DNA from: Pseudooceanicola nanhaiensis
Lineage (GTDB): Bacteria; Pseudomonadota; Alphaproteobacteria; Rhodobacterales; Rhodobacteraceae
DNA: 64,000 nt
Assembly: GCF_020171315.1 (NCBI RefSeq)
Contig: NZ_JAIUZP010000012.1
Span: 1 to 64,000 of the forward strand
Reading direction: 5' to 3'
Positions 18,749 through 43,423 of the stretch are shown here, piece by piece. Each line of letters opens with the position of its first letter. The stretch's first letter is position 1. The notes under the pieces are model-generated. The model worked only from the letters and a program-made list of their open reading frames with translations. It was not told where the DNA came from and did no database searches. Made by a program: the position numbers and the translations under genes.

Positions 18749-20053
18749 CTAGCGCGGAACGGCGGGGGTGACCTCGGCCACCTGCGCGAGGATCGCCTCT
18801 GCCGCCGCGCGCGTGCCGGGCTGCGCCTTCATGTCGGCGGATATCCCGGCGAGCCGCCCGGCCATCTCCGTATCCCCGAGCAGGCCCATCACCGCGTCGC
18901 GCAGCGCCTCTGCCGTCCAGTCGGAGCGGTGTATCCAGCGCCCCGTGCCCGTGGCCTCGGCCCGCTGCGCATTGTCGTGGCCATCCCAGCAATAGGGCAT
19001 CACCAGCGAGGGCACCCCGTGGTAGAGCGCCTCGCAGAAGGAGTTGTTGCCGCCGTGGTGGATGAAGAGCGCCGATTGCGCCACCACCGAGGGCTGCGGG
19101 AACCAGCTGGCGAGGTAGACATTGTCCGGCACCCGGTCATAGCCCTCGAGAAAGCCGCCCACGTTCACGAGGAACTGCGCGGGCAGCCCGTCGAAGGCGG
19201 CGATCATCCGGCGGATCAGCGCGGTGTCGATGGCGCCGAGGCTGCCGAAGGAGAGGTAGACCAGCGGCCCGCCCGCGCCCGGCAGCTCTGGCATGTCGAA
19301 CTGGGTCTCCTCGCGCACGCAGCCTTCGAGGTATCGGAACCTGTCAGGTGGCAAGGGCAGGGCGCGGTCATAGCGCACGGCAGCGGGCGACAGCAGCAGG
19401 TTCATGTGCGGCGAGGGCTCGAGGAAGAGCCCCTCGGCCAGCGGGGCGAGGCCGCGCGCCTTGCGGAAGGCGTTGTAGCGCTGGTGCGCCGGGGCCGTGG
19501 CGGCGAGGGAGGCCGCCTCGAAGGCGGATCTCTTTGCAGCGTCGGGGGCGAGGCCCGAAAGGTAGGGCGGCACGTTGGCGTCCGGCAGCTCCGTCTCGGC
19601 GCAGGAGACGACGCGAATCCACGGCACCCCCGCCCGCGCGATGGCCGGGAACTGGATCACGTTGTCGAGCACCACCGCATCGGGGCGGATCTGGTCGAGC
19701 AGGGCGCAGAGGCCTGCTTCTGCGCCCATGGCGGTATCGACGATCGCCTCCCACGTGGGGGCGACATAGGTCGGCAGCTGCGCCGCCGGGTCGAGGTCGA
19801 AGTGCGGCAGATGGGTGTTGATGAAGGCCTGCCAGTCGTCCTGCGCCTTGTCGGCGCTGGAGCGCGGCGGCTCTGGCAGGTGGTATTCCCGGAAGCCGTA
19901 GTTGGCAAAGACCCCGTTGAAGCCGGGGTGGCAGAGGAAGACCGGCGCGCCGCCCATGCGGCGCACCTCCTGCGCGATGCCGACGCAATTGAGCGCGGCG
20001 CCGAAGCTCGCCTCGGGGAAGAAGGCGATCACGGGGGCGGGGCGGGACGTCAT
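18749..20053 (-). CDS. UGT-like (GT1) glycosyltransferase, copy 1
   Basis: A 434-aa GT-B-fold enzyme of family GT1. The C-terminal donor-binding block is clear: ASWFPQPSVVAQSALFIHHG, then GNNSFCEALYHGVPSLVMPY and CWDGHDNAQRAEATG (about residues 330-380), the equivalent of the PSPG/UGT signature. The N-terminus, IAFFPEASFGAALNCVGIAQ, aligns with the loop where GT1 enzymes carry their catalytic-base His (as in GHVNP), but no His is present. There is no signal peptide, so it is cytoplasmic. It overlaps the GntR gene by 4 bp (ATGA) and is therefore co-transcribed with the regulator. A paralogue lies at 25112-26398 in the same cluster. The acceptor is unknown; import of a small amine by the neighbouring transporter suggests a small-molecule substrate. 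Confidence 0.88.
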   Translation of the reverse strand: MTSRPAPVIAFFPEASFGAALNCVGIAQEVRRMGGAPVFLCHPGFNGVFANYGFREYHLPEPPRSSADKAQDDWQAFINTHLPHFDLDPAAQLPTYVAPTWEAIVDTAMGAEAGLCALLDQIRPDAVVLDNVIQFPAIARAGVPWIRVVSCAETELPDANVPPYLSGLAPDAAKRSAFEAASLAATAPAHQRYNAFRKARGLAPLAEGLFLEPSPHMNLLLSPAAVRYDRALPLPPDRFRYLEGCVREETQFDMPELPGAGGPLVYLSFGSLGAIDTALIRRMIAAFDGLPAQFLVNVGGFLEGYDRVPDNVYLASWFPQPSVVAQSALFIHHGGNNSFCEALYHGVPSLVMPYCWDGHDNAQRAEATGTGRWIHRSDWTAEALRDAVMGLLGDTEMAGRLAGISADMKAQPGTRAAAEAILAQVAEVTPAVPR

Positions 20054-20982
20054 CGCGGGCCTCTCATCAGCGGTGGGATACCGCGATTGGCGGCCTCGGG
20101 GCGACGCCGGCGTGAGCGCCGCAGGTGCAGCGTCATCAGGTCGGCGGCCACGTCGAACTGCATCTGTTCCAGCGCGTCGAGAATGTCCAGATGTTCCTCC
20201 AGCGACTGGCGCAGGCGGAAGTCGGGGATCGAGAAGTCCTTCTGGGTGGCTTTCCGCAGCCGCTGGTGCGCCATCAGCGCACCGCGCACGAAGCGGTTGG
20301 CCGAGCCCTCGGCGACCAGCATGTGGAACTCCACGTCGAGCCGCAGGAACCCCGCGTTGCCGATGCTGCCTGCGGCACTTTGCAAAGCGTCCTGCATCTG
20401 GCCGCGCAGAAGGCCCGATTTCTGGGCATCGAGGCGAAACCCGGGCGTGAGGATCGCCTGCGGCTCCAGCTGGAGCCGGAATTGCAGGCTCTCATCCGCC
20501 GCATTCGGCGTGTCGAGGATCGGCTGAAAGGCCCAGGACCGGCCGGGCATCTGGGTCACGATCCCGTCGCGAGATAGTATTTTTAGCGCATTTAGTACCG
20601 ACGTGCGCGATGTGCTGTATCTTCGGGCAAGGGCGCTGACCGATTGCAGGTCGTCGATCCGCCGGGCGGCCCTGTCCGTAAGGATGCGGTGGGCGAGGCT
20701 GTCTTCGAGCGACTCCAGCTCCTGTGCCGCCTCGTCCAGCCCGTCGTCGCGCCCCAGTTCGAGGAAGAAGCCCTCTTCCTCGCGCCAGCTGAGAATTCCC
20801 TTCTCTTCCAGAAGTTTGAAGGCTGAGCGAATAGGCGTTCGCGACACGCCGCAGGCTTCGGAGAAGCTTTGCTCCGGCAGGTGATCCCCGGGGCTCATAT
20901 TGCGTTCCCGCACGAGGGCGAGGATCCGCATGGCGAGGGCAAGGTGGTTCTGACGGGCATTGCGGCGTGACTCTGGCACCAT
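20050..20982 (-). CDS. GntR/FadR-family regulator with two winged-helix-like domains
   Basis: A 310-aa regulator. The first GntR winged helix covers about residues 15-75 (SPGDHLPEQSFSEACGVSRT, then PIRSAFKLLEEKGILS). A second helix-turn-helix-like stretch follows at about 95-150 (LQSVSALARRYSTSRTSVLN, ALKILSRDGIVTQMPGRSW). A C-terminal FCD-like helical effector domain follows at about 165-290, with FHMLVAEGSANRFV and HLDILDALEQ. Ordinary FadR/GntR proteins are about 230 aa with one wing, so the extra domain is notable. It is divergent from the transporter operon beginning at 21161 and is the likely repressor of it and of itself, with the transported compound or a metabolite as effector (inferred). 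Confidence 0.87.
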   Translation of the reverse strand: MVPESRRNARQNHLALAMRILALVRERNMSPGDHLPEQSFSEACGVSRTPIRSAFKLLEEKGILSWREEEGFFLELGRDDGLDEAAQELESLEDSLAHRILTDRAARRIDDLQSVSALARRYSTSRTSVLNALKILSRDGIVTQMPGRSWAFQPILDTPNAADESLQFRLQLEPQAILTPGFRLDAQKSGLLRGQMQDALQSAAGSIGNAGFLRLDVEFHMLVAEGSANRFVRGALMAHQRLRKATQKDFSIPDFRLRQSLEEHLDILDALEQMQFDVAADLMTLHLRRSRRRRPEAANRGIPPLMRGPR

Positions 20983-21160
20983 CCCTCCTGTCGGGTCTGT
21001 CCGTGCTTGCCGTGATCCGACGGCACGTAAAAGAACAGCGAATACAGTTTGACGTACTTTTCAACTCAACAATACTGTCAATATCAGCGGTCATCAAGAA
21101 CCGCACCTGATATGCCCCGGCCTGAAGCCGGGGGTCCAACAGTCCATACCGGAGGAAGAT
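20983..21160 (+). promoter_or_regulatory. Divergent control region with candidate promoter for the transporter operon
   Basis: TTGACG (21049-21054) and TACTGT (21073-21078) with an 18-bp spacer form a plausible sigma-70 promoter reading toward the binding-protein gene. An inverted pair, ACAGT (21044-21048) and ACTGT (21074-21078), brackets it and could be part of the GntR operator. GGAGGAAGAT (21151-21160) is a good ribosome-binding site for the ATG at 21161. Confidence 0.5.
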
Positions 21161-22216
21161 ATGAAATCTGATCCGTCGACCCTGATCCCGTCCCTCGCCG
21201 CGCTCTGCGCGACGCTTGGCCTTGCCGGCGCTGCCGCGGCCGAGGACCTCGTGATCTCGAACTGGGACGGCTACATGGCGCCCGATGCCGTCGACAGCTT
21301 CAACGAAGCGACCGGCAACAGCGCCGAGCTGGTCCTGCACGGCACCAACGAAGAGATCATGGGCAAGCTGATCGCCTCCAAGGGCGCGGGCTATGACGTG
21401 GTCTTCGTCTCCTCGCCCTTCGCGGAGATCCTGCACAAGATGGGGCTGGCCGAAGAGCTGGACCATGCCAAGCTGCCCAATATAGCCAACCTCTACGAGG
21501 CGGCGACGCAGCTGCCGCATGATCCGGGCAACACCTTCTCGGTCCCCTATGCCTGGGGCACCACGGGGCTGTGCTATCGCTCGGACCTGCTGGCCGAGGC
21601 GCCCGACAGCTGGTGGGATCTGCTGACCCCTGCCGAGGCGGTCGCGGGCAAGACCACGATGCTGGCCACCGACCGCTGGCTGCTGGCCGCGGCCCAGCTG
21701 GCCGAGGGCTATTCGGTCAACACCACGGACGAGGCCGAGCTGGCCAAGGTCAAGGAAGACCTGATCGCCGCCAAGAAGACCTTGCTGGCCTATGACGACA
21801 CCACCTTCTACGCCAAGCTGGTGTCCGGCGAGGCAGAGCTGGTGCAGGCCTGGGACGGCTGGTGCAACTACGGCATCGCCGAGAATGCGGACATCAAGTA
21901 CGTCGTGCCGAAAGAAGGCTCTGACCTCTGGGTGGACGAGATGCTGATCCTCAAGGCTTCCGAGCACAAGGAGGCGGCCTATGCCTTCGTGAACTGGATG
22001 CTGGATGCCGGCAATCACCGCTGGGCGGCCGAGAACATCCTCTACAAGGTGCCGAACGAGGCCGCGATGGAGGGTCTCGACCCCGCGCTGATCGAGCAAT
22101 ACCCGAACATGGGCATGAGCGCCGAGGACCTGCTTGGCTACGAGCTGCTGATGGACGTGGGCGAGGCGCAGCGCGCCTATGCCAAGACCGTGAGCGAGAT
22201 CAAAGCGGCGAACTGA
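21161..22216 (+). CDS. Polyamine-type ABC transporter substrate-binding protein (PotD/PotF-like)
   Basis: A 351-aa periplasmic binding protein. A signal peptide (SLAALCATLGLAGAAAA, then EDLVISNWDGYMAPD) is cleaved near residue 28. The mature start VISNWDGYM, and later WGTTGLCYRSD and VVPKEGSDLWVDEMLIL, are typical of the spermidine/putrescine family; the NWDGY block forms part of the amine-binding cleft. It captures a cationic organic compound in the periplasm and delivers it to the two permeases encoded next. The true ligand may be a polyamine or another amine. It is the first gene of the operon and is divergent from the GntR regulator. Confidence 0.92.
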   Translation: MKSDPSTLIPSLAALCATLGLAGAAAAEDLVISNWDGYMAPDAVDSFNEATGNSAELVLHGTNEEIMGKLIASKGAGYDVVFVSSPFAEILHKMGLAEELDHAKLPNIANLYEAATQLPHDPGNTFSVPYAWGTTGLCYRSDLLAEAPDSWWDLLTPAEAVAGKTTMLATDRWLLAAAQLAEGYSVNTTDEAELAKVKEDLIAAKKTLLAYDDTTFYAKLVSGEAELVQAWDGWCNYGIAENADIKYVVPKEGSDLWVDEMLILKASEHKEAAYAFVNWMLDAGNHRWAAENILYKVPNEAAMEGLDPALIEQYPNMGMSAEDLLGYELLMDVGEAQRAYAKTVSEIKAAN

Positions 22217-22339
22217 TCCGCCTGATATCCAGCCATCGGGTCCGGTGATGCAGCTGCTTGCGCTGCCCCGGGCCCGGGGTGCGGCCCGATGCCTCTGCCT
22301 GGGGTGGGTCGGGTGTATCGGGCCGCGACCCCATCGGAA

Positions 22340-23203
22340 ATGTCCCCCGTGAAAGACCGCAAACCGCTCTACCTGATGACGCCCGCGCTGGCGTGGCTCA
22401 CTGCCTTCATGGTGGTCCCCTGCCTGCTGATCCTCGCGCTGGCCTTCTTCCGGCGCGGGATCTACGGCGGCATCGAATATGTCTTCACGCTGGAAAACCT
22501 CGCCATGGTGGTGGACCCGCTCTATGCGCGGATCTTCCTGAAATCGGCGGGGATCGCGGGGCTGGCCGCCGGGATCGCCGTGGTGGTGGGCTATGCCGCC
22601 GCCTATGCCATCGCCGCCATGCCGCGCCACCGCCAGCCTGCGCTGCTCTTCTTCGCGGTGCTGCCCTTCTGGTCGAACTACCTGATCCGCACCTACGCCT
22701 GGATCGTGCTGCTGAACCGCGAGGGGCTGATCGTGCACCTGTTCCGCTGGTTCGGATACGAGGGCGAACTGCCCCAGATGCTCTATACCGAAACGGCGGT
22801 GGTGATCGGGCTGGTCTACAACTACCTGCCCTTCGTGATCCTGGCCTGCTACGCGCCGCTCTCGCGTCTGAACCCCGAGGTGGCCGAGGCCAGCCATGAC
22901 CTTGGCGCCTCGCAGTGGACGACCTTCCGCAGGATCACCCTGCCGATGACCGTGCCGGGGATCGCGGCAGGGTTCGTTTTTGTCTTCGTCCTCTCCATCG
23001 GCAACTTCGTGACGCCGGCACTGCTGGGCGGCGGGCAGTTCCAGATGATTGGCAACCTCGTCTATGCGCAGTTCCTGACGGCGAACGACTGGCCCTTTGG
23101 CGCCGCACTCTCCATGGCGTTGATCGCGGTGATGATGGTGCTGCTGACGGCGCAGACCTTTGCCAGCGAACGCGCCTCCGGGCAGGGGGGGCGCGATGCC
23201 TGA
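22340..23203 (+). CDS. Polyamine-type ABC transporter permease (PotB-like)
   Basis: A 287-aa inner-membrane protein with about six helices, starting MSPVKDRKPLYLMTPALAW. The EAA coupling loop that contacts the ATPase is EVAEASHDLGASQWTTFRRI at about residues 193-212. NYLIRTYAWIVLLN and NFVTPALLGGG are typical of PotB/PotH. An upstream ATG at 22289 is in frame, but the residues before 22340 are not hydrophobic and are unlike the family. It overlaps the next permease gene by 8 bp. Confidence 0.9.
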   Translation: MSPVKDRKPLYLMTPALAWLTAFMVVPCLLILALAFFRRGIYGGIEYVFTLENLAMVVDPLYARIFLKSAGIAGLAAGIAVVVGYAAAYAIAAMPRHRQPALLFFAVLPFWSNYLIRTYAWIVLLNREGLIVHLFRWFGYEGELPQMLYTETAVVIGLVYNYLPFVILACYAPLSRLNPEVAEASHDLGASQWTTFRRITLPMTVPGIAAGFVFVFVLSIGNFVTPALLGGGQFQMIGNLVYAQFLTANDWPFGAALSMALIAVMMVLLTAQTFASERASGQGGRDA

Positions 23204-23987
23204 GCGTGGCAAGACCCGCCTGATGCTGGCGATCCTCGCGGGCGTTTTCGCGTTCCTCTACGTGCCGATCTCGGTGCTGATCGCGCTCAGCTTCAACGCG
23301 GGCGGGCTGCCGACCGCATGGACCGGGTTTTCGGTGAAGTGGTACGGCGAACTCTTCGCCAATCGCGATATCATGCACGCGGCACTGAACACGCTGATCG
23401 TGGCCGTGGTCTCGACCCTGCTGGCAACGATCCTTGGCACGCTGCTGGCCGTGGGCGTGGAGATCCGCCGCCGCAAGGGCCGCTTCCTCGAGACCATCAT
23501 CTTCGCTCCGATGATCATTCCGGACATCGTGCTGGCCATCGCGCTGCTCAGCTTCTTCTCGATGCTGAACGTGAAGATGGGCCTGCACACGATCATTGTC
23601 AGCCACGTGGTTTTCAACCTCGCTTTCGTCTGCTCGGTCGTGCGCGCACGGCTGAAAACCTTCGACTGGTCGATCGTCGAGGCCTCCGCCGACCTTGGCG
23701 CTTCGACCGCCACGACGCTGCGCCGCGTGGTGCTGCCGGTGCTGATGCCCGCGGTGATCGCGGGCGCGCTGCTGGCCTTCACGCTGTCGGTCGATGAATT
23801 CATCATCGCCTTCTTCACCGCCGGTGCAGGGCGGTCCTCGATCACCTTGCCGATGCAGATCTTCGCCATGATCCGCTTCGGCGTGACGCCCGAGATCAAC
23901 GCGCTTGCGACGCTGGTCATGCTGTTCAGCGTGATCGCCCTTGCGCTTTCCCAGAGACTGAACCGCGGGGGTCTGCCCGGACAATGA
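23196..23987 (+). CDS. Polyamine-type ABC transporter permease (PotC-like)
   Basis: A 263-aa inner-membrane protein, starting MPERGKTRLMLAILAGVFAF. Its EAA loop is SIVEASADLGASTATTLRRV at about residues 165-184, and SVDEFIIAFFTAGAGRSSIT is typical of PotC. It forms the channel with the preceding permease. Its start overlaps the upstream stop, and its stop overlaps the ATPase start by 4 bp (ATGA), so the three are translationally coupled. Confidence 0.9.
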   Translation: MPERGKTRLMLAILAGVFAFLYVPISVLIALSFNAGGLPTAWTGFSVKWYGELFANRDIMHAALNTLIVAVVSTLLATILGTLLAVGVEIRRRKGRFLETIIFAPMIIPDIVLAIALLSFFSMLNVKMGLHTIIVSHVVFNLAFVCSVVRARLKTFDWSIVEASADLGASTATTLRRVVLPVLMPAVIAGALLAFTLSVDEFIIAFFTAGAGRSSITLPMQIFAMIRFGVTPEINALATLVMLFSVIALALSQRLNRGGLPGQ

Positions 23988-25039
23988 CGCAAGTGCTGCT
24001 CTCTCTTTCCGACGTGGAAAAGCATTTTGGCCGGGTGAAGGCCGTGGATGGCGTGTCGCTCGACATCGTCGAGAACGAGTTCTTTGCCCTGCTGGGGGCC
24101 TCCGGCTCGGGCAAGACGACGCTGCTGCGGATGCTGGCGGGGTTCGAATTGCCCACCGGCGGCCAGATCGTGCTGGACGGCAAGGACGTCTCGCAGGTGC
24201 CGCCGAACCGCCGCCCGGTGAACCTGATGTTCCAGAGCTATGCGCTCTTCCCCCATATGTCGGTGGCCAAGAACATCGCCTACGGGCTGGAGATGGAGGG
24301 GCTGCTCCGGCGCGAGATCACCGCGCGGGTGGGCGAGATACTGGAGGTGATCCAGCTGGCCCCGCTCGCCAATCGCAAGCCCGACCAGCTGTCGGGCGGG
24401 CAGCGGCAGCGGGTAGCCCTGGCCCGCGCGCTGGTGAAACGGCCGCGCTTGTTGCTGCTGGATGAACCGCTCGGCGCGCTCGACAAGAAGCTGCGCGGCG
24501 AGATGCAGCTGGAGCTGAAGCGCATTCAGGCGGAGTTCGGCATCACCTTCATCGTGGTCACCCACGATCAGGAGGAGGCCCTCGTCATGGCTGACCGGAT
24601 CGCGATCCTGAAGGACGGTCGCCTGCTGCAGTCGGGGACCCCGCGCGAGATCTACGAATACCCTGAAACCCGCTATGCCGCCGACTTCATCGGTCAGATG
24701 AACTTCATCCCCGTGACCCGCTCGGGCGACCTGCTCTTTGCCCGCAACGGTGCGCGGATCGGCGGGGTGATTCCGGCGGAGGCGCCCGAGGCCCTCGTGG
24801 CTGCGGTCCGGCCCGAACGGCTCTACCTCGATGCCGAGGCCGAGAACGTGGTGACGGGCACCGTCCGGTCCACGGCCTACCTCGGGCTTGACCTGCACCT
24901 GCACCTCGACACGCCCCTCTGCGATCAGCCGCTCCTCGTACGGCTGACGGCGGACGCCGCCGAGGGGCGCGATATCACCGAAGGCGCGCGCCTGACGCTG
25001 GGCTGGTCCGCCCGCGACACCCGCGTCTTTCCCGCCTGA
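23984..25039 (+). CDS. Polyamine-type ABC transporter ATP-binding protein (PotA-like)
   Basis: A 351-aa ATPase. Walker A is LLGASGSGKTTLLRMLAGFE, the signature is [16 protein letters not shown], Walker B is LLLLDEPLGALDKKL and the switch is [16 protein letters not shown]-terminal TOBE domain (about 270-350) is present, as in PotA and other MalK-type subunits. It powers the permeases encoded before it. The next gene starts after 72 bp, so the glycosyltransferase, cupins and dehydrogenase are probably in the same transcript. Confidence 0.92.
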   Translation: MTQVLLSLSDVEKHFGRVKAVDGVSLDIVENEFFALLGASGSGKTTLLRMLAGFELPTGGQIVLDGKDVSQVPPNRRPVNLMFQSYALFPHMSVAKNIAYGLEMEGLLRREITARVGEILEVIQLAPLANRKPDQLSGGQRQRVALARALVKRPRLLLLDEPLGALDKKLRGEMQLELKRIQAEFGITFIVVTHDQEEALVMADRIAILKDGRLLQSGTPREIYEYPETRYAADFIGQMNFIPVTRSGDLLFARNGARIGGVIPAEAPEALVAAVRPERLYLDAEAENVVTGTVRSTAYLGLDLHLHLDTPLCDQPLLVRLTADAAEGRDITEGARLTLGWSARDTRVFPA

Positions 25040-25111
25040 CATCCAAGGCCCGCCAAATCGGGCCCGAAACTCAAAGGCCCGCCAGAGGCCGCCCCACCAG
25101 AGGAGACCCAG

Positions 25112-26398
25112 ATGACCCAGAAAACCTTCGCCTTCTTCCCCGAAGCGGCCTTCGGCCCCGCGCTCAACTCCGTCGGCATTGCGCAGGCGGTCGAGCGGAT
25201 GGGCCACAAGGCCGTCTTCCTCTCGGACCCCGGCTTTGTCGAGGTCTATCAGGGCTACGGCTTCGAGGCGCATCCCGTGAACCTCTCCGAACCGATGCCG
25301 CCCGAGCAGATGGCCAAGTTCTGGGAGGATTTCATCAACGGGCACATTCCCAACTTCCGCAAGGCGCCGATCGACCAGATCGACAACTACGTCAAGGAGT
25401 GCTGGGAGGCGATCGTGGACAGCGCGAAATGGGCCGAGAAGGACCTGCCCGCGGTGCTGGCCAAGATCAAGCCGGACGTGATCAGCGTGGACAACGTGAT
25501 CCTCTTCCCGGCGATCAAGCAGTACGGCGTGCCATGGGTGCGGATCATCTCCTGCTCGGAGAACGAGATCGAGGATGACGCGATCCCGCCGCACCTCTCG
25601 GGCATGTCCGAGACGGATACCGAGGGCCACGCCGCCTTCCGGGCGAAGTTCAACGAGGTGATCAAGCCGATCCACGACGATTACAACGCCTTCCTCGCCA
25701 CGACCGGTGAGGACCCCTATCCGCTGGGCCAGTTCTTCGAGGCCTCGCCCTTCATGAACCTGCTGCTCTACCCCGAGCAGGTGAAGTACCACCGCTCCGC
25801 GCCGCTGGACCCGGCGCAGTTCCAGTACCTCGAAGGCTGCGTGCGGCAGGACAAGCCCTATACCGTGCCGACCTTTGCGGCGAACAACGACGGCCCGCTG
25901 CTCTATGTCTCCTTCGGGTCGCTGGGGGCGGGGGATACCGACCTGCTGAAGCGGCTGATCACGCTGATCGGCAAGACCCGCTATCGCGCGCTGGTGAACG
26001 TGGGCGATTACATTGGCGAATATGACGACATCCCGCCGAACGTGGTCATCGACAGCTGGTTCCCGCAGCCCTCGGTCATCCCGCAGGTGGATGCTGTGAT
26101 CCACCACGGCGGCAACAACTCCTTCACGGAATGCCTCTACTTCGGCAAGCCCGCGATCATCATGTCCTATGTCTGGGACGGCCACGACAACGCCATGCGG
26201 GTGCAGGAAACCGGCCACGGCTTCCGCTCGGAACGCTACGATTGGACGGATGAAGAGCTGATCGCCAAGATCGAGGCCTGCCTGACGGACGCCGACATGG
26301 CCGCGAAACTGGCCGCGACCTCGGCCCATATGCAGGGCCAGAACGGGCAGGAGAAGGCCGCCAAGATCCTCGTCGACCTCGTGGAGTCGCAAGCGTGA
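25112..26398 (+). CDS. UGT-like (GT1) glycosyltransferase, copy 2
   Basis: A 428-aa paralogue of the enzyme at 18749-20053. Shared blocks include FFPEAAFGPALNSVGIAQ at the N-terminus, FQYLEGCVR, LYVSFGSLGAGDTDLLKRLI and the donor site (SWFPQPSVIPQVDAVIHHGG, NNSFTECLYFGKPAIIMSY, VWDGHDNAMRVQETGHG). As in copy 1, the N-terminal loop has Phe and Pro where GT1 enzymes normally have the catalytic-base His. AGAGGAGACCC precedes the ATG. It follows the transporter ATPase and overlaps the first cupin gene by 4 bp (GTGA), so it acts in the same pathway. The acceptor and sugar donor are unknown. Confidence 0.88.
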   Translation: MTQKTFAFFPEAAFGPALNSVGIAQAVERMGHKAVFLSDPGFVEVYQGYGFEAHPVNLSEPMPPEQMAKFWEDFINGHIPNFRKAPIDQIDNYVKECWEAIVDSAKWAEKDLPAVLAKIKPDVISVDNVILFPAIKQYGVPWVRIISCSENEIEDDAIPPHLSGMSETDTEGHAAFRAKFNEVIKPIHDDYNAFLATTGEDPYPLGQFFEASPFMNLLLYPEQVKYHRSAPLDPAQFQYLEGCVRQDKPYTVPTFAANNDGPLLYVSFGSLGAGDTDLLKRLITLIGKTRYRALVNVGDYIGEYDDIPPNVVIDSWFPQPSVIPQVDAVIHHGGNNSFTECLYFGKPAIIMSYVWDGHDNAMRVQETGHGFRSERYDWTDEELIAKIEACLTDADMAAKLAATSAHMQGQNGQEKAAKILVDLVESQA

Positions 26399-26754
26399 CG
26401 AACCTCGCCTCCTCCGCGCCCCATATCCACGGGGCGGGCGCCTTTGACGATCTCGTGGACTGGGGCGCGCAGCCCGACGCGCTGGACGGCGCCTCGCACT
26501 CCACCGGGCGGCTGCTGCACAAGGGGCCGGGCAATATCCCCGAGACCGGCATCTGGGATTGCACCCCGGGCCGCTGGCGGCTCTCCGTCCCGCGGGACGA
26601 GTTCTGTCACTTCGTCTCGGGGCGTGCGACCTATGTCAGCGACGGGGGCGAGGTGATCGAGGTCACCCCCGCCACCTGCGTCCTGTTCCCCGCCGGCTGG
26701 ACCGGCACCTGCACGGTCCACGAGACCATCCGCAACATCTACATGCTGAGTTGA
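26395..26754 (+). CDS. Cupin-fold protein (Cupin_3/DUF861-like), copy 1
   Basis: A 119-aa single-domain cupin with a GTG start overlapping the glycosyltransferase stop. Core blocks are ETGIWDCTPGRWRLSVPRDE, FCHFVSGRATYVSDGGEVIE and TCVLFPAGWTGTCTVHETIR. The metal-ligand candidates of the usual cupin motifs are only partly kept (E in PRDEFCHF, H in TVHETIR). Cupin_3 proteins include EutQ-like and ureidoglycine-processing enzymes, but no reaction can be assigned. A paralogue follows directly. Confidence 0.85.
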   Translation: MTNLASSAPHIHGAGAFDDLVDWGAQPDALDGASHSTGRLLHKGPGNIPETGIWDCTPGRWRLSVPRDEFCHFVSGRATYVSDGGEVIEVTPATCVLFPAGWTGTCTVHETIRNIYMLS

Positions 26755-26758
26755 CCCC

Positions 26759-27103
26759 ATGACGACACCCGTGATGACCAAGCCGCTCGAAATCACCGAC
26801 ACGGTGGACTGGGGCGTGATCCCGACCATGATCGAGGGCGAAAGCCGCACCTCGGGCAAGCTGCTTCACAAGGGGCCGAACGGCGAGAACGAATGCGGCC
26901 TGTGGATTTGCACGCCCGGCAAGTGGGAATGCCACGTGACCCGGGACGAGTTCTGCCACTTCCTCGAAGGGCGCTGCACCTATGTCCACGAAAGCGGCGA
27001 GGTGATCGAGATCACCCCCGACACCGCCGCCTTCTTCCCGCAGGACTGGAAGGGCGTCTGCACCGTCCACGAGACGATCAAGAAGGTCTACATGATCCGC
27101 TGA
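26759..27103 (+). CDS. Cupin-fold protein (Cupin_3/DUF861-like), copy 2
   Basis: A 114-aa cupin closely resembling the preceding one: GLWICTPGKWECHVTRDE, FCHFLEGRCTYVHESGEVIE and TAAFFPQDWKGVCTVHETIK. The two genes are 4 bp apart and probably arose by tandem duplication; their products may form a heterodimer or act on successive intermediates. It lies between the glycosyltransferase and the aldehyde dehydrogenase genes. The function is unknown. Confidence 0.85.
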   Translation: MTTPVMTKPLEITDTVDWGVIPTMIEGESRTSGKLLHKGPNGENECGLWICTPGKWECHVTRDEFCHFLEGRCTYVHESGEVIEITPDTAAFFPQDWKGVCTVHETIKKVYMIR

Positions 27104-27214
27104 GCGGATCGGGTGACCCCTGTCCGGCCCTCCCTGACGGCGGGCCGGGTGCTGCCGCGCCGCAGGGCGGGCGAGACACGGAAAGGATCCGCGCGCCGGA
27201 TCGGGAGAGACGAG

Positions 27215-28720
27215 ATGTCCGATATCGACACGCCCCGCTATTACCTGACCCCCGGACTGCGCGAGAGCACGGGCCGCGCCGAGGCGGTCATCGACCCCGC
27301 CACGCTGGACCGCGTGGGCACCCGTGCCGTGGTGAGCGCGGGCGAACTGGCCGAGGTGCTGGCGCAGGTCAACGCCGCGCAGGCAGGCTGGGCCGCGCTG
27401 GATGCCAAGACGCGGGCCGGGCACCTGCACCGGCTGGCGAACCGCATCGAGGCCACGGATATGACCCGTTGCGCCATCCTGATGAGCCGCGAGATGGGCA
27501 AGCCCTATCCCGAGGCCATCGGCGAAGTGGCGAACTGTGCCTCGATCTTCCGCTATTACGCCGAAATGGCCCGCGACGAGGCGGGCAAGATCGCGGGCTC
27601 CACGCAGGCGGGCTCCTTCCAGTATGCGCGTTACGAGCCGCTCGGCGTCTCGGCCCATATCATGCCGTTCAACTTCCCCGTGCTGCTGATGTGCTGGACG
27701 GTCGCCGCCTCGCTGGCCGCCGGGAACGGCTGCGTCGTGAAACCGGCGGAGGCGACGACGCTGTCCACGCTGGAATTCATGAAGGTCTTTGACGAGATGC
27801 CCGCAGGCCTCATCGCCTGCCTGCCGGGCGACGCAGAGGTGGGGAAGGCGCTGGTGGCCTCCGACCTGACCCACGCCGTGGCCTTCACCGGCTCCGTCGC
27901 CGGGGGGCGTGCCGTGGGGGCTGCCGCCGGTGGCCTGATGAAGCCCGCGATCATCGAGGCGGGCGGGTCCGACCCGATGATCATCACGGATCACGCGCCG
28001 CTTGCGGTGGCAGCGGCGGGGGCTGTGACGGGGGCCTTCCACCTCTCCGGGCAGGTCTGCACCTCGACCGAACGGCTCTTCGTCACGGAGGGCATCCACG
28101 ACGCCTTCGTCGCGGCCTTCGTGGAGGAGACGGCGGCCCTGCGTATCGGCAACGGGCTGGACAAATCCGAGATCGGCCCGCTGGTCAGCAAGGCCGCACG
28201 GGACAAGGTCGAACGGCTGGTGGCCGATGCGATTGCCAAGGGCGCCAAGGTCGAGATCGGCGGCGGCGCGCCTGCAGGGCAGAACACCGGCTGGTTCTAT
28301 GCCCCCACGATCCTTACCGGCTGCACCCCCGACATGGAGATCATGCACGAGGAGATTTTCGGCCCCGTCGCGGCGATTGCCAAGGTGAAGGACTTCGACG
28401 CGGCCATCGCGGCGGCGAACGACAGCCCCTTCGGCCTCGGCGCCTCGATCTTCACCACCTCGCTGGAGGAGGCGCAGGAGGCGGCGGAACGGCTGCAGTC
28501 GGGCATGGTCTGGGTCAACAACCCGATGATCGACAACGACGCGCTGCCCTTCGGCGGCTGGAAGGCGTCGGGCATGGGGCGGGAGTTGGGGCGGCAGGGG
28601 CTGGATGCCTTCCGCCGCTCCAAGATGGTGATCATGGATCACCGCCCCGTGCGGCAGGACTGGTGGTATCCTTACCCGGACGAGTGGTTCCTCGACGCGG
28701 GCGGACGCAAGCACGTGTAA
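27215..28720 (+). CDS. NAD(P)-dependent aldehyde dehydrogenase
   Basis: A 501-aa ALDH-superfamily enzyme. It has the active-site Cys in HLSGQVCTSTERLFV, the general-base Glu in IEAGGSDPMII, cofactor blocks VKPAEATTLSTLEF and FTGSVAGGRAVGAAA, and the C-terminal EEIFGPVAAI and PFGGWKASGMGRELG. It resembles succinate-semialdehyde-type enzymes. In this cluster it probably oxidises the aldehyde made from the imported amine; however, no amine oxidase or aminotransferase lies here to make that aldehyde. GGGAGAGACG precedes the ATG at 27215. A terminator follows. Confidence 0.93.
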   Translation: MSDIDTPRYYLTPGLRESTGRAEAVIDPATLDRVGTRAVVSAGELAEVLAQVNAAQAGWAALDAKTRAGHLHRLANRIEATDMTRCAILMSREMGKPYPEAIGEVANCASIFRYYAEMARDEAGKIAGSTQAGSFQYARYEPLGVSAHIMPFNFPVLLMCWTVAASLAAGNGCVVKPAEATTLSTLEFMKVFDEMPAGLIACLPGDAEVGKALVASDLTHAVAFTGSVAGGRAVGAAAGGLMKPAIIEAGGSDPMIITDHAPLAVAAAGAVTGAFHLSGQVCTSTERLFVTEGIHDAFVAAFVEETAALRIGNGLDKSEIGPLVSKAARDKVERLVADAIAKGAKVEIGGGAPAGQNTGWFYAPTILTGCTPDMEIMHEEIFGPVAAIAKVKDFDAAIAAANDSPFGLGASIFTTSLEEAQEAAERLQSGMVWVNNPMIDNDALPFGGWKASGMGRELGRQGLDAFRRSKMVIMDHRPVRQDWWYPYPDEWFLDAGGRKHV

Positions 28721-28775: not shown

Positions 28776-29708
28776 TCAGCGGCGGCTGGCGGCCGCGGCA
28801 AGGATCATCCCGCCCATCACCAGCGTCAGGCCGATCAGGAAGACGGGCGAGAGCTGGTTGTCGAGCAGAAGGACCGAGGCGGCGACCCCGGTCAGCGGCA
28901 CGCCGAGGGTGAAGTTCGACATGGCGAAGGTGCTGATCCGGCGGCCGTATTCGGAAGAGATCACGAAGCAGGCCGAGGTTGCGATCGGGCCGATGTAGAT
29001 CAGCAGCTGCACGAGGTGCCCGCTCCATGCGATCTGGTGCGGCGCGCCATGGACGACAGCGGCGGCAACCGCCAGCGGCACGGTGGCCAGCAGCATCTGC
29101 CACGGCGCCAGCGACAGCGGCGAGGACACCCACTTGTGCCGCTTCACGTGCAGGATCACCAGCGACCATGCAATCGCGCCGATCAGGAGGAAGCCCGCGC
29201 CCATGAAGGCCCCCGGCTGGGTCCAGTCGGTCTCCAGCGGCGAGACGATCAGCGCCACGCCCGCGACGCCCACGGCGACGGCGGCCAGTTGGGCGCGGCT
29301 GGGTCGCGTCCCGAACAGTCCCCAGGCCAGCAGCACCGACCACAGCGGCGTGGTATAGGCCAGCAGCACCGAATGGCTGGTGTCGGTCTTGGTCATGGCG
29401 ATCATGCCGAGGCCCGTGAAGGTCATCATCTGAAGAAGCCCGATGCTGAGCACGATGGGCATGTCGGCCTTCTTGGGCAGGCGCAGCTCACCCCGGACCG
29501 CCACGAAGGCAAAGAGGCACAGCGCGGCCGAGCCGAAGCGGAAGGCGGCGAGCCAGAGCGGCGGGACAGAGACCAGCGCGATCTGCGTCGCGGGCCAGCT
29601 GAGCCCCCAGAGCAGCACCATCGCCATCAGCCACAGCCGCGTGGTGTTCGCGTCATCCTGCGTGGCGGTGGAGATGCGGCCCCGGAGGGCGCCCTGAATG
29701 CTGGCCAT
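28776..29708 (-). CDS. EamA/DMT-family exporter
   Basis: A 310-aa membrane protein with about ten helices in two EamA repeats (first repeat WLMAMVLLWGLSWPATQIAL; the second begins near GAFMGAGFLLIGAIAWSLVI). The drug/metabolite transporter family exports amino acids and other metabolites. It is divergent from an Lrp-type regulator, the common pairing for amino-acid efflux genes, so an amino acid or a related metabolite is the likely cargo. ATG at 29708 is chosen; an in-frame ATG at 29744 would add 12 polar residues. Confidence 0.88.
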   Translation of the reverse strand: MASIQGALRGRISTATQDDANTTRLWLMAMVLLWGLSWPATQIALVSVPPLWLAAFRFGSAALCLFAFVAVRGELRLPKKADMPIVLSIGLLQMMTFTGLGMIAMTKTDTSHSVLLAYTTPLWSVLLAWGLFGTRPSRAQLAAVAVGVAGVALIVSPLETDWTQPGAFMGAGFLLIGAIAWSLVILHVKRHKWVSSPLSLAPWQMLLATVPLAVAAAVVHGAPHQIAWSGHLVQLLIYIGPIATSACFVISSEYGRRISTFAMSNFTLGVPLTGVAASVLLLDNQLSPVFLIGLTLVMGGMILAAAASRR

Positions 29709-29833
29709 GGTCTGTCCTGTCTCGCTGTTGCGAACAGACTGCATCCTATACGGTGGAAAATCCTGTCTTCTCTTCTGCGCCTGCGAGAAATATAGGAGAG
29801 TTTGACCTGTGAATCGCGATTGGTGGGAATGAT

Positions 29834-30328
29834 ATGCCGAGAAATGCCGTTCAGCTGGATGACGCCAGTCTCCGCATCCTCGACGTGCTGCAGAAAAACG
29901 CCGAGATCAGCAACGCCGATCTGGCCGAGAAGGTGAACCTCTCCGCCTCGCCCTGCTGGCGCCGCGTGGCGGAGATGCGCGACAAGGGTGTGATCCGCGG
30001 GTCGGTGGCACTGGTCGATCCGGTGCAGCTGGGGCTGCTGGTGAACGTCTTTGTCCATGTCACCCTCAGCCGTCAGGACAAGGCCTCGCTCAAGGTCTTC
30101 ACCGATGCGATCGAGGGCCGTCCCGAGATCATGGAATGCTACCTCATGACTGGCGAGGCGGATTACATGCTGCGCGTCGTGGTGGAAGACCTGCTGCAAT
30201 ATCAGGGCCTCGTGCTGGACTGCCTGACGCAGATCCCGGGCGTCTCCAACATCCGCTCCAGCTTTGCCCTCGATCAGGTGAAATACACCACGGCGTTGCC
30301 CACGGGCCACCTCTCTGGCGGAAGGTAA
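29834..30328 (+). CDS. Lrp/AsnC-family regulator
   Basis: A 164-aa regulator. The N-terminal helix-turn-helix is LDDASLRILDVLQKNAEISN, then ADLAEKVNLSASPCWRRVAE (about residues 7-45). A C-terminal RAM/AsnC ligand-binding domain includes IMECYLMTGEADYMLRVVVE. It is divergent from the EamA exporter gene, which it probably controls in response to an amino acid. The 125-bp gap contains AT-rich sequence (GAAAATCCTGTCTTCTC, GAAATATAGG) suitable for Lrp binding. Confidence 0.92.
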   Translation: MPRNAVQLDDASLRILDVLQKNAEISNADLAEKVNLSASPCWRRVAEMRDKGVIRGSVALVDPVQLGLLVNVFVHVTLSRQDKASLKVFTDAIEGRPEIMECYLMTGEADYMLRVVVEDLLQYQGLVLDCLTQIPGVSNIRSSFALDQVKYTTALPTGHLSGGR

Positions 30329-38749: not shown

Positions 38750-40165
38750 TCAGAACCCGATCGGGTCGATCGGGTCGATGGCCCCGATGGCGCGTTCCAG
38801 CACGGCACCGGCCTCCAGCAGGCGCTTGTCCTGGAACCGGTCGCAGAGCAGCTGCACCCCCATCGGCTTGCCCGGCGCCGAGCCGACCGGCACGGAGAGC
38901 CCGGGCAGCCCGATGATCGGCGTGCCCGAGAGCGGCGCACAGATGCCATAGAACCACGCGGCATCCGCGTCGTCTGAGACGTCGTAATCGTCGATCATCG
39001 GTTTCGCCCATGTGGTCGCCGTCAGCACCAGCGGGAATTTCTGGAAGAACATCTGCCATTCCACCAGCAGGGCAGAGCGCTTGGTCAGCGCCTTGAGGAA
39101 GGCGTCGCGGCTGTCGAGTTCGGGCACCCCTTCGAGCAGCAGGTCGATGGATTTCTTCATCTTCCAGTCGCCGTTGTCCATCATCAGACCCTGAAGGCCC
39201 GCGCGCATCTCGTTGCCGAGGATCAGCCGCCAGTAGTCCATCAGCTCGGCAAAGGAGGGCGGCGTGACTTCCTCCACGGTGTAGCCCGCATCGGCGAGGA
39301 TCGCGCCCGCCTGACGGATCGCGGCGCTGACTTCCGGGTCGACCGGGGCCTCGTCGGTTTCGGCCAGCATGGCGACCTTGCAGGGCGCATGGCCCAGCGG
39401 GCCGAAGATGTCGCCTGCGGGCACCTGCCAGATGTCGCGCGGATCATGACCCGAGAGCGCAAGCGCGCCGAGGCGGATATCCTCGATCGAGCGCGCCAGC
39501 GGCCCCTGCACCGAGGCCATCTGCGAGACGATCATCCGGTGCGGCACGCTGGGAGAGGTGGCGGCCAGCAGGCCCGAGGTCGGGCGCAGGCCGTAGATGC
39601 CGCAGGCAAAGGCCGGGTAGCGGACCGAGCCACCGATGTCGTTGCCATGGCCGATGGCGCCGATCCCCGCCGCTGTGGCCGAGCCCGCCCCGCCCGAGGA
39701 GCCGCCGGGCGTCAGCGTCTTGTCATGCGGGTTGTAGGTCGCGCCGTGCAGGTCGTTGTTGGTGAAGGCGCGCATGGAATAGCAGGGCGTGTTGGTCCGC
39801 CCGAGGATCACCGCGCCCGCGGCCTTCATGTTCTGCACGACCGACCCGTCGGAGGCCGCGATATTGTCCTTCTGTGCCACGACGCCGTTGGTGGTGGCCC
39901 GCCCGCCGTAATCGACGTTGATCTTCACCGTGACCGGCACCCCGTGCAGCGGGCCGCTGGGGCCCGAGGTGCGCAGGGTGGCATCGGCGGCGCGGGCGGC
40001 CTCCATGGCCTGCTCCTCCAGCGGGTCGACCACGGCATTCAGCGCCGGGTTCACCTGTGCCATGCGGGCCAGCGCGCTTTCCGTCGCCTCGACGCTGGTG
40101 ATGCGGCCAGCGGCGATCCCGGCCGCGAGGTCGGCGGCGGTCCATTTCCAGAGGTCGGTCGTCAT
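38750..40165 (-). CDS. Amidase signature family hydrolase
   Basis: A 471-aa amidase. The Ser-cisSer-Lys triad is visible: Lys in GVPVTVKINVDYGG (about 80), cis-Ser in LTPGGSSGGAGSATAAGIG, and nucleophile Ser in GHGNDIGGSVRYPAFACGIY. Length and motifs fit acylamidases rather than GatA, since no gatB or gatC is adjacent. It is divergent from the PotABCD-type importer beginning at 40603; together with the downstream amidohydrolase this suggests breakdown of an imported amide. ATG at 40165 is chosen over the longer frame because the family begins there (MTTDLWKWTAADLAAGIAAG). Confidence 0.9.
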   Translation of the reverse strand: MTTDLWKWTAADLAAGIAAGRITSVEATESALARMAQVNPALNAVVDPLEEQAMEAARAADATLRTSGPSGPLHGVPVTVKINVDYGGRATTNGVVAQKDNIAASDGSVVQNMKAAGAVILGRTNTPCYSMRAFTNNDLHGATYNPHDKTLTPGGSSGGAGSATAAGIGAIGHGNDIGGSVRYPAFACGIYGLRPTSGLLAATSPSVPHRMIVSQMASVQGPLARSIEDIRLGALALSGHDPRDIWQVPAGDIFGPLGHAPCKVAMLAETDEAPVDPEVSAAIRQAGAILADAGYTVEEVTPPSFAELMDYWRLILGNEMRAGLQGLMMDNGDWKMKKSIDLLLEGVPELDSRDAFLKALTKRSALLVEWQMFFQKFPLVLTATTWAKPMIDDYDVSDDADAAWFYGICAPLSGTPIIGLPGLSVPVGSAPGKPMGVQLLCDRFQDKRLLEAGAVLERAIGAIDPIDPIGF

Positions 40166-40602
40166 GGGGGCTCTCCTTGATCCGGGGGCAGGCGGCCCCG
40201 CACGCAGGGGCAAGCTATGACGCAGCCCGCGAACAGGGCAATTCCCCCATATGGTGTAAAGTCGCGACGCGGCGGCACGAGCGGGCCGCCGGTCGTGGAG
40301 GATGCCCGGTTTTTGGGCGCTGCTTTTTGGCCTGCGTCGCAGCGTCACGACCCACGTTCGCACGCTCAGGCCCTGAAGAGGCTCGATCATTTGTAGGCAA
40401 ACTACCTCCGGTCCGCTGTCAAGGGTTTGTTAATCGTTGATTTTCGCCCGGGAGTTTGCCGCAATGTGCGCAGTGGTGGGCCCCCTGCGGGCCTGTGGAC
40501 GGGATGCGCGGGGACGTGCCGCGCGCCTGTCACGCGCGGCGGCGGACCCGCCGCAGGGACCATGGCTGGGACCCGAGCAAAGACCGGAAAGGACACGTGC
40601 CG
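40166..40602. promoter_or_regulatory. Divergent intergenic region between amidase and ABC transporter genes
   Basis: This 437-bp gap should hold promoters for both sides. An AT-richer part at about 40420-40445 (GGTTTGTTAATCGTTGATTTTC) is the best promoter candidate for the plus strand. GGAAAGGACACG (40586-40597) is the ribosome-binding site for the ATG at 40603. No clear operator palindrome was found. Confidence 0.35.
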
Positions 40603-41679
40603 ATGATCGCGATCGAAAACGTCACCAAGATATACGGTGAAGGCAAAAGCGCCTTCCGTGCCCTCGACGACGTGTCGGTCACGATCAAGGATAACGAGTT
40701 CTTTACCCTGCTGGGGCCCTCGGGCTGCGGTAAGACCACGCTTCTGCGCACCATCGCGGGCTTCGTCGATCCCTCCAGCGGGTCGATCCGGCTGGGCGGC
40801 AAGGACATCCTGCAAAGCCCGCCCTACAAGCGCCCGGTGAACACGGTGTTCCAGAACTACGCGCTCTTCCCGCATATGACCGTCGCCCAGAACATCGCCT
40901 TCGGCCTCGAGATGCTGGGCAAGCCCAAGCGCGAGGTGAAGGCCACCGTCGAGGAGATGCTGGAACTGGTGCGGATGACGCCCATGGCGGACCGCCAGAC
41001 CGGCCAGATCTCGGGCGGGCAGCAGCAGCGGGTGGCGCTGGCCCGGGCGCTGGCCCCGCGACCTCAGGTGCTGCTGCTGGACGAGCCGCTCTCGGCGCTC
41101 GACTTCAAGCTGCGCAAGGACATGCAGCTGGAGCTGAAGCGCCTGCAGACCGAAACCGGGATCACCTTCGTCTTCGTCACCCACGATCAGGAAGAGGCGC
41201 TGACCATGTCCGACCGGATCGCCGTGATGAACGCGGGCAAGATCCGGCAGATCGGCGGCGCGCGCGACATCTACGACCAGCCGGCCGAGCGTTTCGTGGC
41301 GGATTTCATCGGGGATACGAACTTCCTCGATGTCGAGGTGCTGGAGATCACCGGCGACGCCGCCCGCGTGCGCCTTGCCGGCGGGGCCGAGACGACGGCG
41401 CGCGGCGCGGCCGAGGCGGGCACCGGCATGGGGGCGGCCACGCTGGCCACCCGGCCGGAACATGCGCGCCTCGTCCCGGTGGGGCAGGGGGTGATGGAGG
41501 GGCTGCTGTCGCAGGTGGTCTACTTCGGCACCGATACCCATTATCACGTCACGCTGTCCGATGGCGCGGCCTTCACCCTGCGCCAGCAGAACACGCCGGA
41601 CATGGCCCATGCCTTCACGCAGGGCGACCGGGTGGGCATCCACCTTGCCCCCGGCGTCGGCCAGCTGCTGAAGGACTGA
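40603..41679 (+). CDS. Polyamine-type ABC transporter ATP-binding protein (PotA-like), second system
   Basis: A 358-aa ATPase. Walker A is [20 protein letters not shown], the signature is [16 protein letters not shown], Walker B is [15 protein letters not shown] and the switch is [19 protein letters not shown] domain lies at about 280-355. It is the first gene of the operon, unlike the system at 21-25 kb where the ATPase comes last, so the two sets are not a recent duplication. It energises the permeases encoded next. Confidence 0.92.
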
Positions 41680-41683
41680 GGCC

Positions 41684-42598
41684 ATGAGCGACCTGTCCGC
41701 CGCCCGCACCGCCACGGAACGCCGCAACCGCTGGCTTCTGCTCAGCCCGGCGCTGCTGATCCTGATCTTCGCTGCCGCAGGCCCGCTGCTGATCGTCGTG
41801 GTCTATTCCTTCCTCACGCCGGGCGACTACGGCGGGGTGAAGCCCGAATTCTCGTGGAATGCGTGGTTCTCCGTGGTGATGGAGCGGGACTTCTTCACCG
41901 AGGAACTGACCTTTGCCGATGCGCACCTGTCGATCTTCTGGCGCTCGCTCAAGCTGTCGCTGATGACCACGGTGGCCGCCTTCGTCTTCGGTTTCCCCAC
42001 CGCCTATTTCATCGCGACGCGGCCCAAGCGCAGCCGGGATGCCTGGATGCTGCTGATCATGATCCCGTTCTGGACCAACCTGCTGATCCGCACCTTCGCG
42101 ATCATGGAGCTGATCCGGGCCGAGGGCACGGTGAACACGCTGCTGCTGTGGCTGGGGATCATCGACGCGCCGATCCAGATGCTCTTTACCGAGTTCTCGA
42201 TCATGCTGGGGATGGTCTATGTCTACCTGCCGCTGATGGTCCTGCCGATCTACGCCTCGATGGAGCGGTTCGACTTCTCGCTGGTCGAGGCGGGCTATGA
42301 CCTCTACGCGACCCGGTGGAAGGTCCTCACCAAGGTGATCTTCCCTCTGGTGAAGCCGGGCGTCATCGCGGGCTCGATCCTCGTCTTCGTGCCCTGCCTC
42401 GGCGCCTACGTGACGCCCCGCGTTCTGGGCGGCGGCAAGAACCTGATGCTGGGCAACCTGATCGAGCTGCAGTTCGGGCAGGGCCGCAACTGGCCGCTGG
42501 GGGCCGCGCTGTCGCTGACGCTGCTGGCGATCGTGATGGTGGCGCTGCTCTTCTACGTGCGCGCCGCCGGTCAGGAGGGGGAGAAGAGCCATGGCTAA
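41684..42598 (+). CDS. Polyamine-type ABC transporter permease (PotB-like), second system
   Basis: A 304-aa membrane protein with about six helices. NLLIRTFAIMELIRAEG is typical of PotB, and the EAA loop is SLVEAGYDLYATRWKVLTKV. GAYVTPRVLGGGKNLMLGN is the conserved C-terminal part. It starts 4 bp after the ATPase stop and overlaps the next permease by 8 bp. Confidence 0.9.
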   Translation: MSDLSAARTATERRNRWLLLSPALLILIFAAAGPLLIVVVYSFLTPGDYGGVKPEFSWNAWFSVVMERDFFTEELTFADAHLSIFWRSLKLSLMTTVAAFVFGFPTAYFIATRPKRSRDAWMLLIMIPFWTNLLIRTFAIMELIRAEGTVNTLLLWLGIIDAPIQMLFTEFSIMLGMVYVYLPLMVLPIYASMERFDFSLVEAGYDLYATRWKVLTKVIFPLVKPGVIAGSILVFVPCLGAYVTPRVLGGGKNLMLGNLIELQFGQGRNWPLGAALSLTLLAIVMVALLFYVRAAGQEGEKSHG

Positions 42599-43391: not shown

Positions 43392-43423
43392 TCCGGTCCA
43401 ACCATCCAACTGGGAGTAACCAC

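Follow-up and report, generated by a model that had tools for sequence, protein, structure and literature searches.

A glycosyltransferase-cupin gene module and a possible route of amine catabolism through a glycosylated intermediate in bacteria and haloarchaea

The 64,000-nucleotide stretch of Pseudooceanicola nanhaiensis DNA analyzed here (the window, always at its full length) encodes at 18749-28720 a cluster of ten genes that is best read as an amine catabolic operon, in which an importer, glycosyltransferases (GTs), cupins and an aldehyde dehydrogenase (ALDH) would degrade an imported amine through a glycosylated intermediate; we put the probability of this reading at about 50%. The core of the cluster is a GT-cupin module. 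All ten genes are intact reading frames, called from an open reading frame listing and confirmed by Pfam and NCBIfam scans, and they are arranged divergently, with the GntR and GT-a genes running leftward and those from PotD through ALDH rightward out of a 178-nucleotide gap:

18749-20053, minus strand: GT-a, a GT1-fold glycosyltransferase of 434 amino acids, accessory paralogue (EryCIII-like_C/UDPGT; catalytic histidine replaced by alanine)
20050-20982, minus strand: GntR/FCD regulator (PF00392, PF07729)
20983-21160, no strand: divergent intergenic region with the likely promoters, inferred from the gene layout
21161-22216, plus strand: PotD-family binding protein with the altered pocket WDGY-S-P-T-W-W-W-D-Y-L (Pfam/NCBIfam and pocket alignment)
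22289-23203, plus strand: PotB-like permease (NF007044, 231 bits, cut-off 348)
23202-23987, plus strand: PotC-like permease (NF007047, 249 bits, cut-off 326)
23984-25039, plus strand: PotA ATPase (TIGR01187, 373.8 bits, cut-off 355.6)
25112-26398, plus strand: GT-b, the core GT1-fold glycosyltransferase, 428 amino acids (Pfam, AlphaFold, Foldseek; catalytic histidine replaced by Pro16)
26395-26754, plus strand: cupin A, Cupin_3, EutQ-like (PF05899, 2.9e-16)
26759-27103, plus strand: cupin B, Cupin_3 (PF05899, 1.3e-16)
27113-28720, plus strand: ALDH, starting at GTG 27113 or, more likely, at 27215 (PF00171, 5.7e-142)

These calls bear out the gene content given in the original prediction, an assessment made from the letters of the DNA before the present analysis: two GT genes flank a complete PotDBCA-type importer (binding protein, two permeases and ATPase), the two Cupin_3 genes stand in tandem and are followed by the ALDH gene ending at 28720, and no amine oxidase or aminotransferase is seen among the genes of 18749-28720. 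The reported overlaps, ATGA between GntR and GT-a and GTGA between GT-b and cupin A, can be read directly in the sequence.

Across 102 loci, a Cupin_3 gene lies at most 400 nucleotides downstream on the same strand for 98 of 104 GT-b-type genes and for none of the 76 GT-a genes; the figure of 104 excludes four loci from the phylum search, which show the same order. Among the exceptions, the cupin gene of L043 is 4.1 kb away, L071 has none, L075 and L095 are at contig edges, and the genes at L147 and L149 are second GTs, a GT-cupin pair being present elsewhere in each of the two loci. The surroundings of the module vary: at L043 an MFS_2 transporter accompanies it and Pot genes are absent; at L147 the GTs and cupin stand beside an Oxidored_FMN enzyme, which we take to be of the TMADH type, an ETF/Fe-S protein and GcvT (by Pfam); and at L149 a GT pair and a cupin are accompanied by FMN oxidoreductases and a branched-chain-type ABC importer, identified by eye. 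The last two settings hint at methylated amines. Degenerate or truncated PotA-like genes, recognized partly by eye, lie directly upstream of lone GT-cupin pairs (L142:7251-8453, L148:11050-12312 and L141:11739-12185) and are perhaps relics of the full cluster. A plasmid of Pseudomonas frederiksbergensis (L120) carries, among genes for type VI secretion, a broken GT-b-like gene that is split into several fragments.

A scan of GTDB genomes produced 298 stretches encoding GT-b relatives, and the best 80 of these (by title mainly Rhodobacterales and Rhizobiales, also Halomonadaceae, Marinomonas and other Gammaproteobacteria) together with four plasmid loci, all chosen for carrying GT-b, make up a set of 84 loci, several of them cut by contig ends, in which genes were counted at an identity of at least 36% and a coverage of at least 50%, and GntR at looser limits. 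The gene order is largely fixed over this set, recurring in many Alphaproteobacteria and, among Gammaproteobacteria, for example in Halomonas and Marinomonas, and such recurrence is more than chance. The original prediction would have been refuted by GTs and transporter lying apart in most related genomes, but in these relatives the two stay together: 75 of the 84 loci have PotD, including every one of the 73 that carry GT-a, counts that rest on loci picked by GT-b similarity. Cupin-B is present in 81, ALDH in 79, GntR in 74 and cupin-A in 71. Strong GT-b matches, with the own genome counted each time, were obtained for 4 of 22 genomes searched in the genus, 12 of 295 in the family, 13 of 385 in the class and 8 of 398 in the phylum, and since so few genomes carry them the cluster is an accessory trait. 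Some copies reside on plasmids, including two haloarchaeal plasmids whose GT is 58-59% identical. The further regions read comprise 18 from more distant genomes and four genomes from the phylum search; the hit genomes G005, G076, G088, G137, G173, G244, G259 and G324 of the genus and family searches and G799 and G936 of the phylum search lay outside this reading.

For the 67 loci with eight genes, mean pairwise identity is 0.83 for cupin-B, 0.80 for GT-b, 0.71 for cupin-A and ALDH, 0.70 for PotD, 0.66 for PotA, 0.62 for GT-a and 0.49 for GntR, cupin-B thus being the best conserved of the eight proteins compared. Distances of PotD correlate with those of GT-b or GT-a at r 0.82, a value reached by none of 200 permutations, although common ancestry of the organisms alone would also yield such correlations.

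The AlphaFold model of GT-b has a GT-B fold (mean pLDDT 92.5), and its top Foldseek matches are the spider-mite structures 7mco and 7lvy (TM score 0.90, 26-27% identity), the nearest solved structure being that of UGT203A2. The catalytic histidine of the mite enzyme (FGHVN) is aligned with proline in GT-b and with alanine or serine in GT-a. By HMMER alignment to 7lvy, as distinct from a residue-level superposition, none of the 182 family GTs scored has this N-terminal histidine (P in 105, A in 69, S in 8); the actinobacterial homologue that was read, one of two, also has P. The C-terminal UDP-sugar motif HHGGNN..WDGHDN is kept in GT-a and GT-b, and all 45 aligned sequences of the two types have Asp127. 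Because these enzymes lack the histidine that would deprotonate a hydroxyl and yet retain an invariant aspartate, the acceptor group is most likely a nitrogen. In UGT1A4 and UGT2B10 the same catalytic histidine has been lost, with proline or leucine in its place. The N-glucuronidation of amines by these two enzymes, as described in the available part of PMC5075577, is an amine N-conjugation by a GT1 fold such as we predict for the cluster GTs, but it belongs to animal detoxification and uses other acceptors and another donor. With UGT203A2, OleD and YjiC the cluster GTs share the two-domain fold and the C-terminal motif, whereas the P, A or S in place of the histidine, the catabolic operons and the coupling to a cupin set them apart.

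The same gene logic would hold if the substrate were an amino alcohol or an amino acid and the GT masked a hydroxyl or carboxyl group rather than the nitrogen. Carboxylates require no base, and the Oxidored_FMN, ETF/Fe-S and GcvT context of L147, a sign of methylated amines, would suit such O- or ester glycosylation, but an alcohol acceptor normally requires precisely the histidine that is missing throughout the family, and we regard this alternative as quite unlikely. Even less probable, in our judgment, is a role of the GTs in the inactivation of a toxin or antibiotic, with the transporter and ALDH as neighbors that have another job. Their best NCBIfam model is indeed the macrolide GT family TIGR01426, but the scores of 134.2 and 96.4 bits fall far short of its cut-off of 260, as do those of 93.8 and 54.8 bits on NF033129 (cut-off 700), so that a macrolide-inactivating GT was rejected; furthermore, the GTs occur with the importer and ALDH in most loci, and with a kinase and an oxidase in many of the same operons. 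GT-a is not a decayed copy, as none of the 45 aligned GT sequences of either type varies at the donor-site residues, and it forms a single clade with support 100/100 in a tree of 76 of the 184 GT sequences. Archaeal GTs fall inside the bacterial GT-b part of that tree (starred branches; midpoint root, with some long branches flagged). The nearest solved relatives of GT-b are spider-mite UGT203A2 and UGT202A2, and the family profile gives UGT203A2 253 bits versus 95 for the oleandomycin GT 2iya, a similarity that may have a bearing on the origin of the mite genes.

A polyamine ligand, which would go with the polyamine-type importer of the original prediction, is not supported by the pocket of the binding protein. 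Pocket positions were mapped from structure work on E. coli PotD, which we take to place the acids at E36, D168, E171 and D257. All 75 cluster binding proteins keep W34, Y37, S83, W229, D257 and Y293, and 74 keep W255, while G36, P85, T168, W171 and L/M327 replace the E, Y, D, E and Q of PotD, so that D257 is the only acid kept of the four. Another PotD of the window (43388-44452), taken as a control, carries E at position 168 and D at 171. Canonical polyamine import by the cluster was rejected on these findings. The same pocket is present in 14 further binding proteins of 59-81% identity, except for Q at 85 in four, and the S-P-T-W-W-W-D run is found even in a Natrialba protein (L118:4105-5166) that is 24% identical overall. 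The Natronorubrum protein has a PotD-like acid pair, and the binding proteins of L071 and the second L069 Pot system also differ. With the acids replaced and the aromatic residues retained, the pocket probably binds a single-headed amine inside an aromatic box rather than a polyamine.

Exactly one of three types of C-N-oxidizing enzyme is encoded in 53 of the 84 loci, and no locus has two: a DAO-family FAD oxidase in 26 (TIGR03329, 236 bits, cut-off 633), a saccharopine-dehydrogenase-like protein in 16, and a second DAO-type FAD oxidase in 11, ten of which also have a glutamine-synthetase (GS)-like gene. The question of how the aldehyde arises, which the original prediction had left open, is thereby answered in the relatives. 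In the window genome, eight relatives of the clusters' FAD oxidase were found, only 24-32% identical, and a close homologue located elsewhere in that genome was accordingly rejected. The best NCBIfam model for the ALDH is BADH (370 bits, cut-off 669). The ALDH (27215-28720) has a conserved aromatic C-terminal tail, with WWYPYP in 73 of 78 homologues, which might cap a sugar-bearing substrate.

Genes for the activation of a free sugar are found beside the same core in two unrelated forms. An AmgK-like sugar kinase occurs in 29 of the 84 loci (200 bits on the AmgK model, cut-off 500) and in all three g635 genomes read, and a stand-alone GlmU-N-type uridylyltransferase domain in 11, all with the kinase and an FAD oxidase; the window genome has one 38% identical relative of the kinase. 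On the two haloarchaeal plasmids, a ROK kinase and a GlmM-like phosphohexomutase are encoded after GT, cupin and ALDH; the ROK kinase of Natrialba (L118) scores 159 bits on a glucokinase model (cut-off 500), and the mutase scores 288 bits (cut-off 439); FAD oxidase, aminotransferase and PotABCD genes lie in the same regions. Two non-homologous sugar-activation gene pairs beside one GT-cupin-ALDH core are the strongest sign that a sugar is attached and then freed. In AmgK/MurU salvage, a free sugar is converted to sugar-1-phosphate and then to UDP-sugar; the cluster kinase resembles that system by its match to the AmgK model but differs in scoring below cut-off, in having a GlmU-N-like partner and in the location of the genes inside an amine operon. 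With importer co-occurrence, the kinase and uridylyltransferase genes and the oxidation step in 53 of 84 loci, the genomic context supports that part of the original prediction which placed glycosylation within an amine pathway; no pointer to glycosylation of an aldehyde instead of the amine, its other option, was found among the analyzed loci.

These genes could conceivably work in the opposite direction, an N-glycosylated amine being imported and stripped by the GT and UDP to give UDP-sugar, with the kinase and uridylyltransferase salvaging hydrolyzed sugar. GT1 reactions can be reversible; UDP-sugar is costly and its capture would pay; an aldose epimerase is encoded at L042 (35-37% matches also occur in L059 and L062); and the aromatic pocket (W34, Y37, W171, W229, W255, Y293) could fit a larger ligand. 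A plain hydrolase would suffice for glycoside uptake, however, and the binding protein retains S83, W229, D257 and Y293 of a small-amine pocket, which makes this reverse use improbable.

Cupins A and B score 59.4 and 60.5 bits on Cupin_3, above the Pfam gathering score of 23.5. The AlphaFold model of cupin-B (mean pLDDT 96.6) has as its best Foldseek match the DUF861 protein 3bcw (TM score 0.88), followed by EutQ (0.63-0.67) and other cupins; PpnP chains are found behind DUF861 and EutQ (E 3e-6 to 3e-5, TM score 0.55-0.63), and identity in the 3bcw, EutQ and PpnP matches is 9-25%. PpnP, a small cupin and nucleoside phosphorylase that splits N-glycosidic bonds, is thus a precedent for a small cupin with this activity. 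The cluster proteins, like all three, are small single cupins, but they have no nucleoside context, and the title of 3bcw names no function. Each of the 23 aligned cupins has E64 and C66, and the motif DE[FLY]C is present in 81 of 81 cupin-B proteins. Compatible with the glycosylated-intermediate reading, and somewhat unlikely in our view, is that the cupin serves the GT as a ligand sensor or accessory subunit rather than as an enzyme, with the sugar released spontaneously or by another protein. The tight linkage of the two genes (98/104), maintained even where binding-protein, permease and ALDH genes are unseen, would fit such a partner, as would the lack of HxH in most cupin-B proteins and the need of some GT1 enzymes for a partner, e.g. 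EryCIII (cf. the title of 2yjn). Against it, cupin-B is better conserved than GT-b (0.83 versus 0.80), and the invariant E64/C66 and DE[FLY]C would suit catalysis as well.

The reactions, ligand, sugar and cupin role that we infer for amine catabolism through a glycosylated intermediate would combine as follows. The PotDBCA-type importer would bring a small cationic amine into the cell, and GT-b would move a sugar from a UDP-sugar onto it, GT-a either acting as its partner or adding another specificity. A C-N-oxidizing enzyme, encoded outside the cluster in the window genome, would convert the free end to an aldehyde, which the ALDH would oxidize to the acid. The sugar would then be freed, with the cupin as best candidate for its hydrolysis or phosphorolysis, or else as GT partner, and would return to UDP-sugar via the AmgK-like kinase and GlmU-type uridylyltransferase or via the ROK kinase and phosphohexomutase; a phosphorolytic cupin would form sugar-1-phosphate without a kinase. 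By masking one nitrogen, the sugar would ensure that the aldehyde neither cyclizes nor poisons the cell. We are less confident of N-glycosylation, and of a cupin that splits N-glycosides, than of the glycosylated intermediate itself. The full version, in which bacteria and haloarchaea share an undescribed glycosyl-masked amine degradation, a histidine-less GT N-glycosylates, the C-N oxidase and ALDH act on the glycoside, the Cupin_3 protein represents a new hydrolase or phosphorylase of N-glycosides, and independently recruited AmgK/GlmU-N or ROK/phosphohexomutase pairs recycle the sugar, is offered tentatively, the odds being rather against all of it holding together.

Several observations weigh against this reading. 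At L141, L144, L145 and L146, where 8-14 kb were read, GT-cupin pairs stand without genes for a binding protein, permease or ALDH, and at L071 the GT lacks a cupin. The distances of GT-b track those of cupin-B (r 0.56) and ALDH (r 0.52) more weakly than those of PotD, even though these values too were reached by none of 200 permutations. The likeness of cupin-B to PpnP does not go beyond the general cupin fold, and HxH is found nowhere in 71 of the 81 cupin-B proteins, so that a metal site of the ureidoglycine aminohydrolase type is unlikely. (S)-ureidoglycine aminohydrolase has a metal-binding bicupin active site; a cupin of that kind was rejected on this ground, as these are single cupins and had no NCBIfam match (0 families). 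None of the three oxidizing genes was seen in 31 of the 84 loci, a situation like that in the window, and the AmgK-like kinase was not seen in 55 of 84, for which a phosphorolytic cupin yielding sugar-1-phosphate might account. The L118 aminotransferase passes the glutamate-1-semialdehyde aminomutase model (400.7 bits, cut-off 398), so that the link of the haloarchaeal aminotransferase to the pathway is unsure and it may have another job. The replacement of the polyamine-pocket acids in 75 of 75 binding proteins and the derivation of the histidine column from an alignment belong here as well.

The closest known logic is that of the Puu putrescine pathway, which consists of an importer, the masking of one nitrogen by gamma-glutamate, an FAD oxidase, an ALDH and release of the mask; the sugar would play the role of the gamma-glutamate. 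Importer and ALDH are common to both, and DAO oxidases are present in operons of relatives (26 + 11 of 84), not in that of the window. GS/PuuA-like genes adjoin the GT genes in Mesorhizobium and lie near them in Natrialba. Unlike Puu, the cluster has as masking candidate a UDP-sugar GT instead of a glutamine-synthetase-like ligase, it has cupins and sugar kinases in place of glutamate release, and its binding-protein pocket is not that of PotD. The Pfam and NCBIfam scans found neither PuuA nor PuuD among the window cluster genes, and membership of this copy in the ordinary Puu pathway was rejected; a GS-like gene of at least 36% identity is present in only 11 of 84 loci, and PuuD, sought in 24 + 5 loci only, was found near the GT in L118 and as a 26% match in L071. 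A second parallel, the N-glucosylation in nicotine biosynthesis, is not known to involve a cupin or importer. The available part of PMC13184244 describes it as cryptic, the sugar being a transient handle put on and removed; a similarly transient sugar is proposed here, but in bacterial catabolism instead of plant biosynthesis. A literature search returned no description of a GT-cupin amine system among the titles and abstract openings listed, subscription journals and bioRxiv being mostly outside its coverage.

If the proposed pathway is real, the roles of glycosylation would extend beyond biosynthesis and detoxification to nutrient breakdown, and small cupins of one family would gain a glycoside-linked function. 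Generically annotated GT1, Cupin_3 and ALDH genes of Rhodobacterales, Rhizobiales, Halomonadaceae, other proteobacteria and haloarchaea would acquire a function, and histidine-less GTs would become possible catalysts of N-glycosylation. A testable question is raised as well: which environmental amine goes through this system?

In the intergenic region there is one weak sigma-70-like match (21049-21076, plus strand), at a frequency of 3 matches per 10.5 kb versus 1.0 expected. No flanking gene family is common to the window and most other loci; in the window, an EamA-like exporter and an Lrp/AsnC-like regulator, named by eye, adjoin the cluster at 28776-30328. A second Pot-type system is encoded at 38750-44452, with genes for PotA, two permeases and PotD and an amidase gene (PRK07487, 554 bits, cut-off 428) that runs divergently from them.

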